A DNA stretch of 64,000 bases from contig DAIDDL010000001.1 in assembly GCA_027309085.1 (NCBI GenBank), positions 62,001-126,000 on the forward strand, in the 5' to 3' direction. A program made the translations under genes and the position numbers. The notes under the pieces were generated by a model. It was not told the DNA's origin. It saw only the letters and a program-made list of their open reading frames with translations, and did not search any database. Shown in pieces: positions 31,800 to 40,781 of this stretch (within the stretch, counting starts at the first letter, position 1; the number at the start of each line of letters is the position of its first letter). The stretch comes from Sulfobacillus sp. GTDB lineage: Bacteria; Bacillota; Sulfobacillia; Sulfobacillales; Sulfobacillaceae.

Positions 31800-32315
31800 A
31801 TGGAGGACAGCCGGGTGGTGCCTGTGACGCTGACGGTCAATGGGAAGGCCATCGCGCGGGAGGTGGAGCCGCGCACGCTCTTGGTGCATTTTCTGCGGGA
31901 TGATGCAGGGTTGACGGGCACGCATGTGGGGTGCGACACCTCGCAGTGCGGAGTGTGCACAGTGCTGTTGAACGGCGAGGCGGTCAAGTCCTGCACCGTT
32001 TTGGCCGTGCAGGCCGATGGAGCCGATGTGCTGACTATTGAAGGAATGGAAGAAGAGATTTTGCATCCTGTGCAGCAGGGATTTTGGGAGAAGCATGGGT
32101 TGCAGTGTGGGTTTTGCACTCCGGGCGCGATGTTGACGGCGTCGTACCTGCTGTCCACTCATCCGCACCCTTCTGAGCAGGAAATCCGCGAAAGTCTCGA
32201 TGGCCTTTTGTGCCGGTGCACGGGATATGAAACGATTGTCCGCTCGGTCCAGCGCGCCCAGGAGATCATGGATGAGCGCCGGGAGTCCGCAGACCGTGAG
32301 ACCCGCGCAATCTAA
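31800..32315 (+). CDS. coxS: Molybdenum hydroxylase small [2Fe-2S] subunit (CoxS-like)
   Basis: A 171-residue electron-transfer subunit. The plant-type ferredoxin cluster is bound by GCDTSQCGVCTVLLNG plus a later Cys (KSCTV), and the helical domain cluster by CGFCTPG and CRCTGY, as in all xanthine-oxidase-family small subunits. Electrons pass from the Mo site of CoxL through these clusters to FAD in CoxM. The start follows GGGGGGATC. It is the first gene of the cox cluster, 20-odd bases before coxL. Confidence 0.95.
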   Translation: MEDSRVVPVTLTVNGKAIAREVEPRTLLVHFLRDDAGLTGTHVGCDTSQCGVCTVLLNGEAVKSCTVLAVQADGADVLTIEGMEEEILHPVQQGFWEKHGLQCGFCTPGAMLTASYLLSTHPHPSEQEIRESLDGLLCRCTGYETIVRSVQRAQEIMDERRESADRETRAI

Positions 32316-32344
32316 CTAATGGATGGCAGGAGGGAGTGGCTGAA

Positions 32345-34693
32345 ATGGCTGACGTTATTGGGAGTGCGCTGAAGCGGCATGAAGATATCCGCCTCATCCG
32401 CGGCAAGGGCCAGTACACTGATGATATGAAGATTCCGGGAATGGTCTATGCTTCGATGGTGAGAAGTCCCTATGCCCATGCCCGCATTGTTGCCGTCGAC
32501 ACGGCTGAGGCCAGGCGAGTGCCGGGGGTGCAGGCGGTCTTTACCGGACGGGACCTGAAAGATGAAGTGGGCATGGTGCCCACGGCTTGGATTCCCCCCG
32601 ACTCGGATATGAAGATGACTCCTCACCCCGCTTTGGCCTACGACTTTGTCCGTTACGCAGGGGACGCCGTGGCCGTGGTTATCGCAGACACTCCCTATAT
32701 TGCCCAGGACGCCGCGGATTTGGTGCGGGTGGAATATGACGCGATGCCGGCCGTGACCAATCCCCGCGATGCCGCGAAAGAAGGGGCGCCCCTGGTTCAT
32801 GAGGATATCGCCGGCAACGTCGCCTTCCACTGGAAGGCCGGTGTGAGCGTGGACGAGGTGTTCAACAAGGCGGAAGTGGTGGTCCGCCATGAATTCCGCC
32901 AGCAGCGGCTGGTTCCCAGCGCCATGGAGCCGCGGGCAGCTGTCGCCCAGTGGAACGCCGCCACAGATGAGCTGACGGTGTGGGTGACAACCCAAAATCC
33001 TCACATTCACCGATTGCTGATGTCCGGCATGCTGGGAATCCCTGAACATAAGCTGCGGGTCGTGGCGATCGACGTGGGCGGGGCTTTCGGCAGCAAAATT
33101 GCCTGCTATCCGGATGAGGTGGTTGTCTCCTGGGCGGCACGCAAGTTGAATCGGCCGGTCAAATGGACCGAGACCCGCTCCGAAAACTTTACGGTGACGA
33201 CCCATGGCCGTGACCATGTGGAGGAAGTGGAGGTCGCGGGGACCAAAGACGGGCACATTCAGGCAATACGGGTCAAAGCTTACGCCAATCTTGGCGCCTA
33301 CCTGTCGACCGCCGCCCCGGGCGTGCCGACAATTCTTTTTGGACTTATTGTCAATGGGGCGTATGCGATTCCCCATGCATCCGCCGAAGTGTTCGGAATG
33401 CTGACCCACACGACCCCTGTGGATGCGTACCGGGGAGCGGGACGCCCTGAAGCCACGTTTCTGGTCGAGCGCATGGTTGACTTATACTCCGAGGCAGTCG
33501 GCATGGACCCGCTAGCCGTCAGGAAAATCAATTTGATTCCCGCGGACGCCTTCCCCTACACCAATCCTTTCACCCTGCAGTATGACAGCGGCAACTATCA
33601 GGGCGCTCTGGCCAAAGCACTGGAGATGGTGGATTACCAGCAATTCCGCAAGGAGCAGGACAACTTGCGAAAACAGGGCAAGTATGTGGGCATCGGATTC
33701 AGCACTTATGTGGAAATGTGCGGACTCGGACCCTCAGAAGTGGCAGGCGCCGTGGGATTTCAAGGAGGACTGTGGGAGAGCGCGACCGTGCGCGTGCACC
33801 CGACAGGCAAGGTCACCGTGTTTACCGGAGCCTCTCCCCACGGCCAGGGAGAAGAAACGACCTTTGCCCAAATTGTGGCTCAGGAATTGGGCCTGCCCCC
33901 GGAGGACATTGAAGTGGTTCACGGCGACACCGCCAAAATTGCTATGGGCTGGGGAACCTACGGGTCGCGGACCACAGTCGTGGGGGGCGCCGCCATTCAC
34001 ATGGCGGACCAAAAAGTGATTGAAAAGGCGCGTAAGATTGCTGCCCACAAGCTGGAGGTGGGGGAAGATGATGTCGCTTTCGAGCAAGGCCTCTTTTCCG
34101 TCAAGGGCCTCCCGGCGCGCACGGTCACCTTTCAGGAAGCCGCGCTTGATGCGTACTTGGCGTGGAGTTTGCCTAAAGGGATGGAACCCGCTCTGGAAGG
34201 CACGGCCTTTTATAATCCGGAGAACTTCACCTACCCGTTTGGCACGCATATTGCCATGGTGTCGGTGGATCCAGAGACTGGGGACATTGAACTGATGCGG
34301 TATGTTGCCGTGGATGATGTCGGGATCGTGATCAACCCGATGCTTGTGGAAGGGCAGATTCACGGGGGCCTCGTGCAGGGAATCGGGCAGGCCTTGTATG
34401 AGGGCGCCGAGTACGATGACCAGGGCCAGCTCCTGACCGGGTCCTTTTTGGACTATGCGATGCCCAAAGCCCGCTTCTTCCCGAAATTTGAAACAGCGCA
34501 TACGGTCACGCCCTCCCCCCACAATCCGCTGGGAGTCAAAGGGGTGGGGGAGACCGGGGCAATTGCCTCGACACCGGCTATAGTCAACGCGGTGATGGAT
34601 GCGCTGGCGCCGTTTGGCATTCATGATCTGCCAATGCCGCTGACGCCGCGCAAGGTCTGGCAGGCGATTGCGGCGAAGGGAGGGACTCACTGA
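32345..34693 (+). CDS. coxL: Molybdenum hydroxylase large subunit, form II CoxL
   Basis: The catalytic subunit (782 residues) that binds molybdopterin cytosine dinucleotide. It begins DVIGSALKRHEDIRLIRGKGQYTDDM and has the late GVKGVGETGAIASTPA motif with the catalytic Glu. The active-site loop reads AYRGAGR (about residues 361-367), the mark of form II; true CO dehydrogenase (form I) has AYRCSFR with the Cu-binding Cys. So CO oxidation is uncertain and the substrate may be another aldehyde or heterocycle. GTG at 32336 abuts the ribosome site, so ATG at 32345 is preferred. Overlaps coxM by one base. Confidence 0.93.
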   Translation: MADVIGSALKRHEDIRLIRGKGQYTDDMKIPGMVYASMVRSPYAHARIVAVDTAEARRVPGVQAVFTGRDLKDEVGMVPTAWIPPDSDMKMTPHPALAYDFVRYAGDAVAVVIADTPYIAQDAADLVRVEYDAMPAVTNPRDAAKEGAPLVHEDIAGNVAFHWKAGVSVDEVFNKAEVVVRHEFRQQRLVPSAMEPRAAVAQWNAATDELTVWVTTQNPHIHRLLMSGMLGIPEHKLRVVAIDVGGAFGSKIACYPDEVVVSWAARKLNRPVKWTETRSENFTVTTHGRDHVEEVEVAGTKDGHIQAIRVKAYANLGAYLSTAAPGVPTILFGLIVNGAYAIPHASAEVFGMLTHTTPVDAYRGAGRPEATFLVERMVDLYSEAVGMDPLAVRKINLIPADAFPYTNPFTLQYDSGNYQGALAKALEMVDYQQFRKEQDNLRKQGKYVGIGFSTYVEMCGLGPSEVAGAVGFQGGLWESATVRVHPTGKVTVFTGASPHGQGEETTFAQIVAQELGLPPEDIEVVHGDTAKIAMGWGTYGSRTTVVGGAAIHMADQKVIEKARKIAAHKLEVGEDDVAFEQGLFSVKGLPARTVTFQEAALDAYLAWSLPKGMEPALEGTAFYNPENFTYPFGTHIAMVSVDPETGDIELMRYVAVDDVGIVINPMLVEGQIHGGLVQGIGQALYEGAEYDDQGQLLTGSFLDYAMPKARFFPKFETAHTVTPSPHNPLGVKGVGETGAIASTPAIVNAVMDALAPFGIHDLPMPLTPRKVWQAIAAKGGTH

Positions 34694-35555: not shown

Positions 35556-36455
35556 ATGAGGCGACCAGAGAGCGTAGGTGCGGTCATTGCCGGATTGCAG
35601 GCGCACCACTATCTGGCCGGACCTGCTCTGGGCACGGCCGTCTTCCTGAGTTTGAAACTGGAGCGCCCTCTGTTGTTGGAAGGGGAGCCCGGGGTGGGGA
35701 AGACGGCGCTGGCTCAGGCGCTGGCCCAGATGCTGCATGTGCCGCTGATCCGCTTGCAGTGCTATGAGGGCATTGACCGGGAAAGCGCGCTGTATGAATG
35801 GAATTATCCGCGCCAGCTGCTGCATATACGGCTGCGCGAACTGAGTGGGGAAGACCCGCAGTTTACGGAACAGTCTCTGTACCGCGAGGAATTTTTACTC
35901 AAGCGCCCGTTATACGAGGCGATCCGGCCCGAGGGCGACCCGCCCGTGCTGCTCATTGACGAGATTGACCGCAGCGACGATGAATTTGAGGCATTTCTCC
36001 TGGAGGTGCTCTCCGAGTTTCAGATCAGCATTCCCGAGATCGGAACTCTAAAGGCGACCCAGCGTCCCGTGGTGATCCTGACGTCCAACCGGACCCGCGA
36101 CGTCCACGACGCACTCAAGAGACGGTGCCTGTACCAGTGGCTGGACTACCCCTCCTACGCGCGCGAACGGGAAATACTGCGCGAGCGCATGCCTCAGATG
36201 GACCCGTCTCTATCCACGCAGATTGTCCATTTTGTGCAGAACCTGCGCCAGCGGCCGCTTGAGAAAGTGCCGGGGCTTTCCGAGACGCTGGACTGGGCTG
36301 CGGCGCTTGAGGCTTTAGGGGTGCTAGCGCTGTCGGAGCAGGTAGTGGAGCAGACCTTGGGATGTGTGCTCAAATACCGCGATGATATTATGAGCATGGG
36401 CGCACCTCAAGTGGTATCCCAAATACTCGGGGAGATCGCCGCCGGTGGAGGATAG
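35556..36455 (+). CDS. coxD: MoxR-type AAA+ ATPase (CoxD-like maturation factor)
   Basis: A 299-residue AAA+ ATPase. Walker A is GEPGVGKTAL, Walker B is VLLIDEIDRSD, sensor 1 is ILTSNRTRDVHDALKRRC, and LRERMPQ starts the lid. In Oligotropha, CoxD helps assemble the metal centre of CO dehydrogenase together with the VWA protein CoxE; the same job is likely here. The ATG at 35556 follows AGAGGCAG; the open frame continues upstream into coxM in another reading, so I do not extend it. It overlaps coxE by 11 bases. Confidence 0.9.
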   Translation: MRRPESVGAVIAGLQAHHYLAGPALGTAVFLSLKLERPLLLEGEPGVGKTALAQALAQMLHVPLIRLQCYEGIDRESALYEWNYPRQLLHIRLRELSGEDPQFTEQSLYREEFLLKRPLYEAIRPEGDPPVLLIDEIDRSDDEFEAFLLEVLSEFQISIPEIGTLKATQRPVVILTSNRTRDVHDALKRRCLYQWLDYPSYAREREILRERMPQMDPSLSTQIVHFVQNLRQRPLEKVPGLSETLDWAAALEALGVLALSEQVVEQTLGCVLKYRDDIMSMGAPQVVSQILGEIAAGGG

Positions 36456-37566
36456 GGCGGCCGAAAATCTGTGGATTCTGGCCCGCGCCCTGAGAACCTT
36501 GGGATTTTCCTTAAGCATCCAGGATGCGGTATTGGCGGCCCGCTCGGTGGCCCTGACCCAGGATCTGTCGCTTACGGGCGTGCACGACGTGCTGGCCGCC
36601 TTGTGGGTGTCTTCCCACGAACAGCGGGTGCTGTTCGACCAGGCGTACGCCTATTTTGCCAGTCTCCTGGCGGGCGCGCTCGACTCTAACATTCCGCAAG
36701 GAGCAGGACCGTGGCTGTCGGGACTTGGCCTGCCCCAAAGCGGCAGGACCTGGGTCAGCTGGATTGACACGGCGAAATCTTCGCAATTCCGGACATCGGA
36801 CCGGACCGTTTACAGCCACAGCGGCCGCGCCAGCAGCGAAGAAGTGCTGGCAGGCAGTCAGAGCGGGCACAGTCCGGCGGAACTCCCATGGGTCCGCAGG
36901 CTGGATTCCCTGCCTGCCCACCAGGTGCGGGGGTACAGAAGGCAGGATGTGCGCCGCGGCAAGCTGTGGAATTTGTCCAGGGTCCTGCGCCGGAACCGGG
37001 GGCGGGCGGAAATTACTGCGCTCTGGCGCCAAAAAAGGCGGAACACCCTGCGGCCTTCGCTGTTTTTATGGGATGCGAGCCGTTCTATGGACGGGTTTTT
37101 GTCCATGTATTTTCAGTTTTTGCACCGCCTGGTGCACACTAAAAACGCGGTGGAGGTGTGGACGTTCAGCACCCGGCTGACGGATGTTACCGCGGAGTTG
37201 CGCACTGTGGACCCTAAGCAGGCGTACCGCAGCGTGTTTGAGAAAGCCCGGGACTTGCGCGGGGGCACCCTCCTCGCCAGTGTGGCTGAGGCCCTGACAG
37301 CGCGCACGGGCAACCGCCTGTCCACCAAGAGCGATATCGTGCTCATCACCGACGGCTATGATGCAGGATCGCCGGAAGACTTGGCGAATATACTATCTAA
37401 GATGGGCAGGCGTTCGCACCGCCTGATTTGGTGGAATCCCTGGCTTGGCCGCAAGGGGTATGAGATTGCTACGCCGGCCGGGAGAATTCTGGCCAAGCAT
37501 TGCGACCGTGTGGACGCGTCGGGAACGCTGGCCGACTGTGTGGCGGCGTGGCAGCGTCTGGCCTGA
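36445..37566 (+). CDS. coxE: VWA-domain protein (CoxE-like)
   Basis: A 373-residue partner of the MoxR ATPase. The N-terminal helical part (LARALRTLGFSLSIQDAVLAARSVAL) is followed by a basic centre (RGYRRQDVRRGKLWNLSRVLRRN) and a von Willebrand A domain with the metal site DASRSM (DxSxS), LRGGTLLASVAEALTAR and IVLITDGYDAG. MoxR/VWA pairs act as chaperones. It starts with GTG at 36445 inside coxD. The IscB element lies just after its stop. Confidence 0.9.
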   Translation: MEDRAAENLWILARALRTLGFSLSIQDAVLAARSVALTQDLSLTGVHDVLAALWVSSHEQRVLFDQAYAYFASLLAGALDSNIPQGAGPWLSGLGLPQSGRTWVSWIDTAKSSQFRTSDRTVYSHSGRASSEEVLAGSQSGHSPAELPWVRRLDSLPAHQVRGYRRQDVRRGKLWNLSRVLRRNRGRAEITALWRQKRRNTLRPSLFLWDASRSMDGFLSMYFQFLHRLVHTKNAVEVWTFSTRLTDVTAELRTVDPKQAYRSVFEKARDLRGGTLLASVAEALTARTGNRLSTKSDIVLITDGYDAGSPEDLANILSKMGRRSHRLIWWNPWLGRKGYEIATPAGRILAKHCDRVDASGTLADCVAAWQRLA

Positions 37567-37592
37567 GACACACGGCCAAGAGAGGAGAAGGC

Positions 37593-37879
37593 CCGTCAAC
37601 TACCCCGCCCTGAAGGGCGGAGCTTGGAGCGATCCTAGCTGGGTTGACCAGGGACAGCGGTAACCAACCCGCTACGTTTGCAACAGGTCGGTCAGACGCA
37701 CCGGCGAATGCTTCCTCAGTCCGCCGCTCTGCAAGGCGGGAATCATGTGGGCGAAAGGTCAAGCGCCGAAGGTTCCTGCCGTCACCGCAAGGTGAGAGCC
37801 GGTTGCAGACATTCCCGAGGGGAGCCGAGCCGCAAGGCTCGTGTCACAAGACCCGTAAGGGGGAAGGAGAAAGTAAACA
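37593..37879 (+). ncRNA. Candidate IscB omega RNA
   Basis: The 290 bases before iscB hold no gene but many paired segments: the end hairpin CCGCCCtgaaGGGCGG (37605-37620), CCGCAAGG-type short stems, and a GAGCCGCAAGGCTC hairpin near 37825. IscB guide RNAs are encoded at this place, directly 5' of the gene, with the guide read from the host DNA just left of the element. Here the guide would be the last bases of the coxE-coxG spacer (about 37580-37600). Expression would come from the cox transcript. Fold and activity are inferred. Confidence 0.65.
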
Positions 37880-39291
37880 ATGGCGGTATTTGTCTTGGAC
37901 ACACGCAAGAAACCGCTCATGCCGTGCTCGGAAAAACGGGCGCGGCTGCTATTGAAACGTGGGCGAGCCCGGGTACATCGGATGGTGCCCTTCACGATTC
38001 GGCTGGTGGATCGTCGGGTGGAGGATTCCGCCTTGCAGCCCCTGCGGCTGAAACTGGACCCCGGCAGTCAGAAGACAGGACTGGCGCTCGTGCGCGAAGT
38101 GGAAACAGTGGATGTCGAGACTGGCGAAGTTTCGCATTCTGCGGCAGTCTTGATGTTGCTAGAACTCAAGCATCGGGGCCAAGGCATCCGCAATGCCTTA
38201 AGGCAGCGACAGGGGCATCGGCGGTTTCGTCGATCCCGACGGCGTTATCGTCCCGAACGTTTTAGTAATCGCCGTAGGCCAGGTGGCTGGCTCGCACCGA
38301 GCCTGCAACATCGAGTAGACACGACCATGACGTGGGTGAAAAGACTGAGGCGGTGGGCACCCGTGACCGCGATTTCTCAAGAACTGGTGCGCTTCGACAT
38401 GCAGCAGATACAAAATCCAGAAATATCCGGTGCAGAGTACCAGCAGGGGACATTGCAGGGATATGAGGTCCGGGAGTATTTGCTGGAGAAATGGGGGCGG
38501 AAATGTGCCTACTGCGGGGCGCAAAATGTGCCGCTGGAGATCGAGCATATGCATTCCAAAGCCAGAGGAGGATCCGATCGGGTCGGCAATCTCACCCTCG
38601 CCTGTCACCCATGTAATCAACGCAAGGACACGCAAACCGTGGCCGAGTTCCGGGCGCACGATCCCGGTCTTGTCCGCTCATTATTGGCGCAAGCACAAGC
38701 GCCCCTGCGGGATGCGGCGGCGGTGAACAGTACCCGTTGGACCTTGTTCCAGCGGCTCAAAGCGACGGGCCTAGACGTGGAAGTCGGTACAGGCGGCAGA
38801 ACGAAGTGGAATCGTCACCAGCTCCAAGTGCCGAAAGCCCACTGTCTGGATGCCGCCTGCGTGAGACATGTCGATGCCATTGAAAACTGGCAACAGCCCG
38901 TTCTCCGCATCAACGCTACGGGACGCGGCAGTTATCAGCGCACACGCCTAATGAAGCATGGCTTTCCGCGGGGATATCTGACCCGGAGCAAAAGCGCATT
39001 CGGTTTTCAGACCGGGGACCTGGTGAAAGCCATCGTCCCTACGGGCAAGAAAGTCGGGAGTTACCTGGGCCGTGTCGCGATACGGGCCAGCGGCAGCTTC
39101 AACATCAAAACGACCTCAGGACTCGTTCAAGGGCTCTCCCATCGTTTCTGCGCTCTCATTCAGAGAGCGGATGGCTATGGGTATTCGTGGACCACGATCA
39201 CTCTGCAAACGAAAGGAGGAGCGGGAATGGGCCAGGCAGAACCTGCCGCGCTATCCCTCACCGGCCTGAAGGCCGAGGTTTCCCGCGCAAC
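37601..39291 (+). mobile_element. IscB element (IS200/IS605-like, no transposase) inserted between coxE and coxG
   Basis: Both ends carry a short palindrome with a TGAA loop: CCGCCCtgaaGGGCGG at the left and CGGCCtgaaGGCCG followed by AGGTTTCCCGC at the right (39262-39285), as at IS200/IS605 ends. The left flank ends GTCAAC and the right end finishes GCAAC, which may be the target and cleavage copies, so I set the limits there. No tyrosine transposase is inside; it would need one in trans. Confidence 0.7.
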
Positions 39292-39298
39292 TGGATGA
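37880..39298 (+). CDS. iscB: IscB RNA-guided nuclease (RuvC + HNH)
   Basis: A 472-residue IscB, the family from which Cas9 arose. In order: PLMP domain (KKPLMPCSEKRARLLLKRGRA, residues 11-30), RuvC-I KLDPGSQKTG (Asp60), RuvC-II LLELKHRG (Glu95), arginine-rich bridge helix (about 113-133), HNH domain with CAYC, IEHMHSKARGG (His223) and CHPC (Cys242 and Cys245), and RuvC-III KAHCLDAACV (His321, Asp324). All catalytic residues are present, so it looks functional. The start follows AAGGAGAAAG. The frame crosses the element's right end and stops at TGA overlapping the coxG ATG. It is adjacent to its omega RNA. Confidence 0.93.
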   Translation: MAVFVLDTRKKPLMPCSEKRARLLLKRGRARVHRMVPFTIRLVDRRVEDSALQPLRLKLDPGSQKTGLALVREVETVDVETGEVSHSAAVLMLLELKHRGQGIRNALRQRQGHRRFRRSRRRYRPERFSNRRRPGGWLAPSLQHRVDTTMTWVKRLRRWAPVTAISQELVRFDMQQIQNPEISGAEYQQGTLQGYEVREYLLEKWGRKCAYCGAQNVPLEIEHMHSKARGGSDRVGNLTLACHPCNQRKDTQTVAEFRAHDPGLVRSLLAQAQAPLRDAAAVNSTRWTLFQRLKATGLDVEVGTGGRTKWNRHQLQVPKAHCLDAACVRHVDAIENWQQPVLRINATGRGSYQRTRLMKHGFPRGYLTRSKSAFGFQTGDLVKAIVPTGKKVGSYLGRVAIRASGSFNIKTTSGLVQGLSHRFCALIQRADGYGYSWTTITLQTKGGAGMGQAEPAALSLTGLKAEVSRATG

Positions 39299-39747
39299 AA
39301 ATCGAAGGCCATAAGCTGATTGAAGCCCGTCCCGAGGAAGCGTACCGGTTATTGACAGATCCGTCCGTTCTGGTTCGGACCATGCCGGGCCTGAAGGCGC
39401 TGGTGCCGGATGGGGAAGGGTCCTACGCGGCCGAAATGGAAATGGGAGTGGCCTCCATTAAGGGAAAATATCAAGGCCGCATGGAAATTGTGGACCAGAT
39501 TGTGGCCCAGTCTTACCGTCTGGTAATGAATGGCCAGGGGCCGGGCGGATTTGTGACGGTCAGCATGCAGGTGGCATTCGACCCGCAGGAGCAGGGCACA
39601 GAGGTGACGTACGCTGGCGAGGCGCAGGTGGGAGGCACTGTGGCGGGAGTGGGCCAGCGGATGCTTTCCGGGGTGGCCAGCTACATTGTGAAGCAGTTCT
39701 TCGCGGCTATCGCCAAAGAGGCGGCTGCTGAGAACAAGGAGGCCTAA
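39295..39747 (+). CDS. coxG: CoxG-like SRPBCC-fold protein
   Basis: A 150-residue START/SRPBCC protein: IEGHKLIEARPEEAYRLLTDP, MPGLKALVPDG, YAAEMEMGVASIKGKYQGRMEI, and a C-terminal amphipathic helix (MLSGVASYIVKQFFAAIAKEAA). CoxG proteins are thought to anchor CO-dehydrogenase-type enzymes to the membrane. Its ATG overlaps the iscB TGA (ATGA). The bases before the ATG now come from the transposon end and contain no good ribosome site, while an orphan GAGAGGAGAAGG site lies at about 37580, left of the element. coxF follows after 2 bases. Confidence 0.9.
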   Translation: MKIEGHKLIEARPEEAYRLLTDPSVLVRTMPGLKALVPDGEGSYAAEMEMGVASIKGKYQGRMEIVDQIVAQSYRLVMNGQGPGGFVTVSMQVAFDPQEQGTEVTYAGEAQVGGTVAGVGQRMLSGVASYIVKQFFAAIAKEAAAENKEA

Positions 39748-39749
39748 AA

Positions 39750-40781
39750 ATGTCCTCTCTTCGGGAGGCGAGAAATATTTGGCAGGTCATGCAAGACGCG
39801 CAGGGAGCGGGACACCGCGTGTGTCTGGCCATGATCACCCAGGTTCAGGGATCCGCGTACCGCCGTCCCGGCGCGAAAATGATGATGGCAGACAGCGGGC
39901 AGATGGCAGGCACCTTAAGTGGGGGATGCCTGGAAGGCGATTTGTACATGTATGCCCAAGATGTGATGAAGAGCCAGCAGGCCACCACCCGCCATTACGA
40001 TCTCACAGAAGACGACATGTGGGGGTTGGGCATTGGCTGCAAGGGACAGATTGACGTCATCATTGAGCCGGTGGATGTGACCCATCCATTCTGGGAGGCC
40101 TATGGTGCGGCTCTGGAGGCGGACCAGCCTTTCTGCCTGGGAATGGACCTCGCTCAGGGGGAACGCTTTATCCGCCGCGGCACCAAGGTGACCACCTACT
40201 CCGGCCACCCGGTGGGGCCGGTGGCGGAAGAGGTTTACGGCCAGACGGTGGTGCGCGGCCACATGATTCTGGATCACCTGACGCCGCCCGAGAGACTGGT
40301 GGTGGCAGGGGCGGGCCATGATGCCAAGCCGCTGGCCGCCCTGGCGCACCAGGCGGGCTTCGAGGTCAGCATTGTCGACCCCCGCAAGATGTTAAACAAT
40401 CCCCAGATGTTTCCGTCTGCGGTCGAGTGGGTGGACACGAACGCGCAGGACATTGAAGCGGACCGGTGGCCGCATGCGTATTGGGCCATCATGAACCACC
40501 AGCAGGACCGCGATGAAAAGGCTCTGCAGCTGGCGCTCCGCTCATCCCCCCAGTACGTGGGGGTGCTCGGGCCGCGGAGCCGGACACAGGAGATGCTGCG
40601 CCACATTGGCGTGACCGGGGAAGACCTGGCACGACTGCCGGTGTTTTCGCCTGTGGGTCTCGACTTGGGGGCGGAGACGCCGGAGGAAGTGGCCATCAGC
40701 ATGGTGGCGGAGATGATGGCCGTGCGGAACCATTGTGCCGGGGGCAACTTGAATGGGAGGGAAAGGATTCACCAGGCATAA
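39750..40781 (+). CDS. coxF: XdhC/CoxF-family maturation protein
   Basis: A 343-residue protein. The N-terminal XdhC domain has ITQVQGSAYRRPGAKMMMADSGQMAGTLSGGCLEGDL with the conserved Cys, and the C-terminal Rossmann part has RLVVAGAGHDAKPLAALA and SPQYVGVLGPRSRTQEML. XdhC proteins bring the sulfurated molybdenum cofactor to xanthine-oxidase-family enzymes. Its place at the end of the cox cluster fits this. It is followed by a terminator. Confidence 0.92.
   Translation: MSSLREARNIWQVMQDAQGAGHRVCLAMITQVQGSAYRRPGAKMMMADSGQMAGTLSGGCLEGDLYMYAQDVMKSQQATTRHYDLTEDDMWGLGIGCKGQIDVIIEPVDVTHPFWEAYGAALEADQPFCLGMDLAQGERFIRRGTKVTTYSGHPVGPVAEEVYGQTVVRGHMILDHLTPPERLVVAGAGHDAKPLAALAHQAGFEVSIVDPRKMLNNPQMFPSAVEWVDTNAQDIEADRWPHAYWAIMNHQQDRDEKALQLALRSSPQYVGVLGPRSRTQEMLRHIGVTGEDLARLPVFSPVGLDLGAETPEEVAISMVAEMMAVRNHCAGGNLNGRERIHQA

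Follow-up and report, generated by a model that had tools for sequence, protein, structure and literature searches.

The 64,000-nucleotide window analysed here (Sulfobacillus sp., contig DAIDDL010000001.1, positions 62,001 to 126,000) contains a mobile element that encodes the RNA-guided nuclease IscB, a small relative of CRISPR-Cas9, together with its omega RNA, located between coxE and coxG of an aerobic carbon monoxide (CO) dehydrogenase-like operon. The element lies exactly between the Shine-Dalgarno sequence and the start codon of coxG; probably it is mobilised in trans, uses the severed leader as its guide and leaves translation of the split gene preserved. A family-wide preference of IscB elements for start codons is shown at the level of sequence. 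The more general proposal is that IscB elements are start-codon transposons, i.e. that they use the RTGA target-adjacent motif (TAM) as a start codon, take their guide from the leader and carry a portable ribosome-binding right end plus a stop/start overlap; this we consider about as apt to be right as wrong.

The Shine-Dalgarno sequence AGGAG (37583-37587) and the coxG start (39295) lie on opposite sides of the element. Joined at the insertion point (marked by a slash), the flanks read AGAGGAGAAGGCCC/ATGAAAATC, and the nearest cox operon of the same genus without an insertion reads AAGGGAGATTATG/ATGAAAATC. Over a longer stretch the joined flanks, CCAAGAGAGGAGAAGGCCC/ATGAAAATCGAAGGCC, consist of the Shine-Dalgarno sequence, 7 nt and the coxG start, and the corresponding coxE-coxG site of the nearest relative without an interruption, which is of the same genus and 59% identical in coxE, reads AGAAGGGAGATTATG/ATGAAAATCGATGG. 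The joined flanks and the uninterrupted relative together imply that the element stands between coxG and the ribosome-binding site of this gene and that the ATGA at the junction (39295-39298, forward strand), which is the target site, the presumed TAM and a motif common to the copies, is the coxG start codon. The same ATGA, that is the start codon of coxG plus an A, also supplies the stop codon of iscB, such that the iscB stop and the coxG start overlap. A CoxE query against genome contigs found no relatives. In an alignment of the copies from the same genome, the left end at 37595 reads GTCAAC, common to nine copies, and the right end lies at 39294; next to it almost every copy of the type found in the window has ATGA, and a second type has GTGA. 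The original prediction, made from the letters alone, had taken 37593-39298 as the unit; its intact IscB with an omega RNA stands, but the element itself covers 37595-39294, the final bases of the reading frame being part of the target site.

Placement at a start recurs across the family. In the discovery family 45 right ends were defined, 14 of them of the window type; eleven of these 14 are followed by an open reading frame (ORF) of at least 60 codons, and ten combine such a frame with a Shine-Dalgarno sequence on the left, versus 11.5% of ATGA sites (p 2.5e-7). Starts confirmed by profile searches include those of UspA, EtfB, GDSL, LeuA-like, CobQ, SDR, FdhD, TyrA and CoxM-like proteins, among others. 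A phylum-wide HEARO set had 3 of 7 readable right ends at starts and, since so few were readable, a larger independent set was added, comprising 80 IscB loci, all of them in named genomes and most in Proteobacteria (one, L290, is a discovery-set locus again). Its 66 readable right ends adjoin ATGA in 65 cases and TTGA in one, although the number with ATGA is to some extent predetermined, since the motif search that located the ends required NTGA, and the position of a few of them may be wrong. The comparison of ORFs does not suffer from this requirement, as its controls were likewise ATGA sites: an ORF of 60 codons or more follows 53 of the 66 right ends, versus 39% of the control sites (p 5e-12), and one of at least 150 codons follows 44 of the 66, versus 19% (p 6e-17). 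For obgE, purM, ruvA, rsmE, xthA, proC, leuB, hisH, galE and pyrC, the starts are confirmed as genuine by NCBIfam models whose alignments begin at the first model positions.

Such a distribution might also arise from an ordinary IscB element, whose start position would merely reflect an RTGA target and the loss of insertions inside genes. We take this possibility seriously without favouring it. ATGA or GTGA is a fixed right-hand junction, and some copies, for instance most of those of the GTGA type, lie away from starts. However, in a control limited to tolerated sites (intergenic or start-like, with approximate gene calling) only about 16% were start-like, against the 53 of 66 observed in the independent set (p 6e-30) and the 11 of 14 in the discovery set (p 5e-7), and obgE, purM and similar genes are cut off from their leaders, yet their frames are intact.

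The right end of the element has the order AAAGGAGG-A-(GCGGGAA...TTCCCGC)-GCAACTGG-ATG, all on the forward strand: a Shine-Dalgarno-like AAAGGAGG (39212-39219) forms the 5' foot of a hairpin (39221-39286, with an outer stem of GCGGGAA at 39221-39227 and TTCCCGC at 39280-39286), and the 8-nt spacer GCAACTGG (39287-39294) completes the right end, the copies being alike as far as the ATGA that comes next. Looping out of the hairpin would leave 9 nt between the Shine-Dalgarno-like motif and the start. The hairpin is a predicted fold that covaries in relatives, both partners having changed in 9 of the 10 consensus pairs, a pattern that fits either a role as RNA or one as single-stranded DNA; a search of the right end against Rfam gave no real match. 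In the discovery family every one of the 21 insertions at starts has a foot motif that is 5 nt or longer and lies at an effective spacing of 8-13, compared with 12 of the 23 remaining insertions (p 1.8e-4). The independent set has a foot with at least five matching bases in 41/66 cases (versus 4.9% of random 14-mers) and one with at least six in 30/66 (versus 0.8%). In 27 of the 66 independent loci the iscB stop overlaps the next start as ATGA, the form found at coxG, or TGATG; strict coupling was seen in 13 of the 14 gene pairs with such overlaps that have been tested (PMC6728339).

Alternatively, AAAGGAGG and the hairpin might only bind the transposase, with the split gene being expressed solely via reinitiation after iscB, or being silent. 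Hairpin ends are typical of IS200/IS605 elements, and the foot motif is present at some non-start insertions too. We nevertheless judge this explanation unlikely: copies at starts in which iscB is broken (C139b, C126 and G021_C301) have kept the foot motif, and among the GTGA-type copies with a GCGGGC or GCGGGC-like stem it is the two at real starts (C83 and G022_C36) that have a Shine-Dalgarno foot.

Several individual copies deserve mention in this context. The deleted IscB copies C96, C150 and C139b of G000 still stand at gene starts, and in C96 the shortened iscB frame still runs in phase into an ATGA stop/start overlap. The sister GTGA-type copies C83 and C139a of G000 (L057 and L060) have an AGGAG foot at a tyrA-like start and AGCGG where the copy is not directly at a start, a difference that could be due to selection for a Shine-Dalgarno sequence. 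At L304 the gene directly behind an IscB element is obgE, which is normally essential; AAGGA lies to the left of this element, whose right end is without a clear foot motif. The same genes were struck in different taxa, namely xthA (L301 and L357, with differing left flanks), galE-like genes (L292 and L299) and DsrE-family genes (L146 and L150), and genes of cox-type operons were struck three times (coxG in the window, coxD at L199 and a coxM-like gene at L203).

The omega RNA (HEARO) scaffold occupies 37595-37830 on the forward strand; its first base is that of the element, and homology between copies begins here. It matches RF02033 over the whole model length (105.3 bits versus a gathering score of 83, E 1e-20) and is the sole Rfam match within the window and not a chance hit. 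This comparison with known omega RNAs bears out the omega RNA region that had been proposed in front of IscB. Directly 5' of model position 1 lies the predicted guide AAGAGAGGAGAAGGCCC (37578-37594, forward strand), which holds the AGGAG of coxG and has no second match in the genome at up to two mismatches. Because insertion took place at the start codon of coxG, the leader of that gene is the predicted guide. The guide had been expected to come from the coxE 3' spacer; its origin in the sequence left of the element is supported, but that sequence is the ribosome-binding site of coxG and not just coxE spacer. A scan of the element for sigma-70 promoters found no internal promoter.

The following scheme would connect these features. 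A transposase acting in trans would put the element 5' of RTGA, and read-through transcription would yield an omega RNA with the coxG leader as its 5' guide. The IscB complex would then recognise the leader plus ATGA on element-free copies of the chromosome and cut there, and cutting of the empty site would favour copying the element back and punish its loss. The split gene would be kept translated by the combination of AAAGGAGG, the looped-out hairpin (effective spacing about 9 nt) and the iscB stop/start overlap, the last by termination-reinitiation. Many relatives of the element occupy the corresponding position at other genes, including housekeeping genes, which they apparently do not silence.

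A number of points weigh against this scheme. None of the ORFs within 37595-39294 encodes a transposase, this interval has no match to Y1, and the element's ends are absent near all five Y1 transposase loci of the genome; IscB elements are commonly non-autonomous (PMC9755519). The association between foot motif and placement at a start is weak in the independent set (p 0.05, borderline), where left Shine-Dalgarno sequences are in modest excess (31/61, p 0.005), and the copies are related, so that their insertion sites are not fully independent. The coxG AUG is partly paired in the predicted fold, and tests of AUG accessibility were mixed, so that we make no claim of an open start. Finally, AAAGGAGG and the hairpin could serve solely for recognition of single-stranded DNA by the transposase.

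The nuclease itself is intact in sequence. The iscB gene (37880-39298, forward strand) encodes 472 aa, with its TGA stop supplied by the target site, and the product scores 443 bits against NCBIfam NF040563 guided_IscB (cut-off 175) and matches PF14239 over its full length (7.7e-70) as well as HNH. Its closest sequence match in the PDB is TbaIscB (7.5e-43), and the top match of its AlphaFold2 (AF2) model is the IscB structure 8csz (E 2.7e-24); the original prediction of an intact IscB is confirmed by these matches. PLMP is present at residues 12-15, the arginine-rich bridge helix at 100-118, the HNH histidine at H223 and the zinc cysteines at 209/212 and 242/245, in agreement with what had been read from the translation. 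For RuvC the earlier reading was Asp60, Glu95, His321 and Asp324, of which D60, H321 and D324 stand; Glu95 is also conserved, but the catalytic RuvC-II glutamate is E168. All of D60, E168, H321, D324 and H223 are present, and they align to D61, E193, H340, D343 and H247 of OgeuIscB, for which the reference catalytic residues, including E193, have been described (PMC9640706). Among the three closest intact copies the ratio of nonsynonymous to synonymous substitution rates (dN/dS) is about 0.06-0.13, from which it follows that the protein has been under purifying selection. Residues 443-472, the C-terminal tail encoded by the right end, are predicted to be disordered, which is consistent with a tail that has no role in the nuclease fold.

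Judged from its sequence, the element is a non-autonomous IscB (ISC/OMEGA) copy of the IS200/IS605 type and an ordinary member of its family. It has the subterminal hairpins and fixed adjacent target sequence of an IS200/IS605-type ISC element, the same genome holds 12 HEARO matches, about 10 IscB pieces and 5 Y1 transposases, and a copy with 70% identity occurs in Sulfobacillus acidophilus AMDSBA3. The presence of an intact nuclease and omega RNA within the operon might also suggest a domesticated regulator of the cox operon. That is very improbable, as the family is multicopy, its copies within the genome occupy unrelated insertion sites, and the cox operons of the same genus that were read at the coxE-coxG junction lack the element. 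We rejected this candidate on the absence of the element from the relatives' cox operons.

The surrounding operon has coxS (31800-32315, assigned from its own sequence), coxL for the large subunit (32336-34693), coxM (start 34693), coxD (start 35493) and, as the upstream neighbour of the element, coxE (36445-37566, forward strand, PF05762); downstream of the element follow coxG (39295-39747, forward strand, 150 aa, PF06240), which is split from its own Shine-Dalgarno sequence, and coxI/xdhC (39750-40781). The coxS-coxI order confirms the earlier description of a CO-dehydrogenase-type operon, whereas CO as the substrate is doubtful. The active site of true (form I) CO dehydrogenase has the motif AYxCSFR; the large subunit encoded here has AYRGAGR and scores 763 bits against TIGR02416, under the cut-off of 991. 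It lacks AYxCSFR and falls under the TIGR02416 cut-off, which implies that the substrate need not be CO, and the substrate of this cox-type enzyme may be a different one.

If the proposed scheme is true, an element with an RNA-guided nuclease could establish itself in housekeeping operons and leave its host alive, sitting before essential genes, being expressed with them and being hard to lose. It would be retained because its guide is directed at the leader and AUG once these are rejoined and because the gene needs the element for its translation, and the resemblance of IscB TAMs to start codons would be explained. With respect to the ancestry of Cas9, the above suggests that the natural guides of IscB elements are often drawn from ribosome-binding regions. 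In the literature searched we did not find start-codon placement, the stop/start overlap or a ribosome-binding right end described, but key older descriptions were not covered and priority is uncertain; the original description of HEARO may reportedly have noted integration at ATGA or GTGA. Known before were IscB, the omega RNA and the NTGA-type TAMs of the related IsrB (PMC9581776).

The window element shares with the IscB/ISC members of the OMEGA systems (OgeuIscB, AwaIscB) the PLMP, RuvC, bridge helix and HNH, an upstream HEARO omega RNA (RF02033, matched here at full length above the gathering score), a guide 5' of the scaffold and a TAM 3' of the target. The IscB locus of Allochromatium warmingii DSM 173 (L354), probably the source of AwaIscB, has the same junction, ending at ATGA ahead of a 340-codon frame. 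OgeuIscB differs in its NNRR TAM (PMC9640706), as opposed to the presumed ATGA here. IsrB (DtIsrB) is alike in its NTGA/TTGA/ATGA TAM (PMC9581776) and upstream omega RNA, but lacks the HNH domain that is present in the window IscB. Lastly, the iscB-coxG junction resembles the ATGA/TGATG stop/start overlaps of known gene pairs (PMC6728339), with the difference that those pairs arise by ordinary operon structure and the one at coxG by insertion of a transposon.
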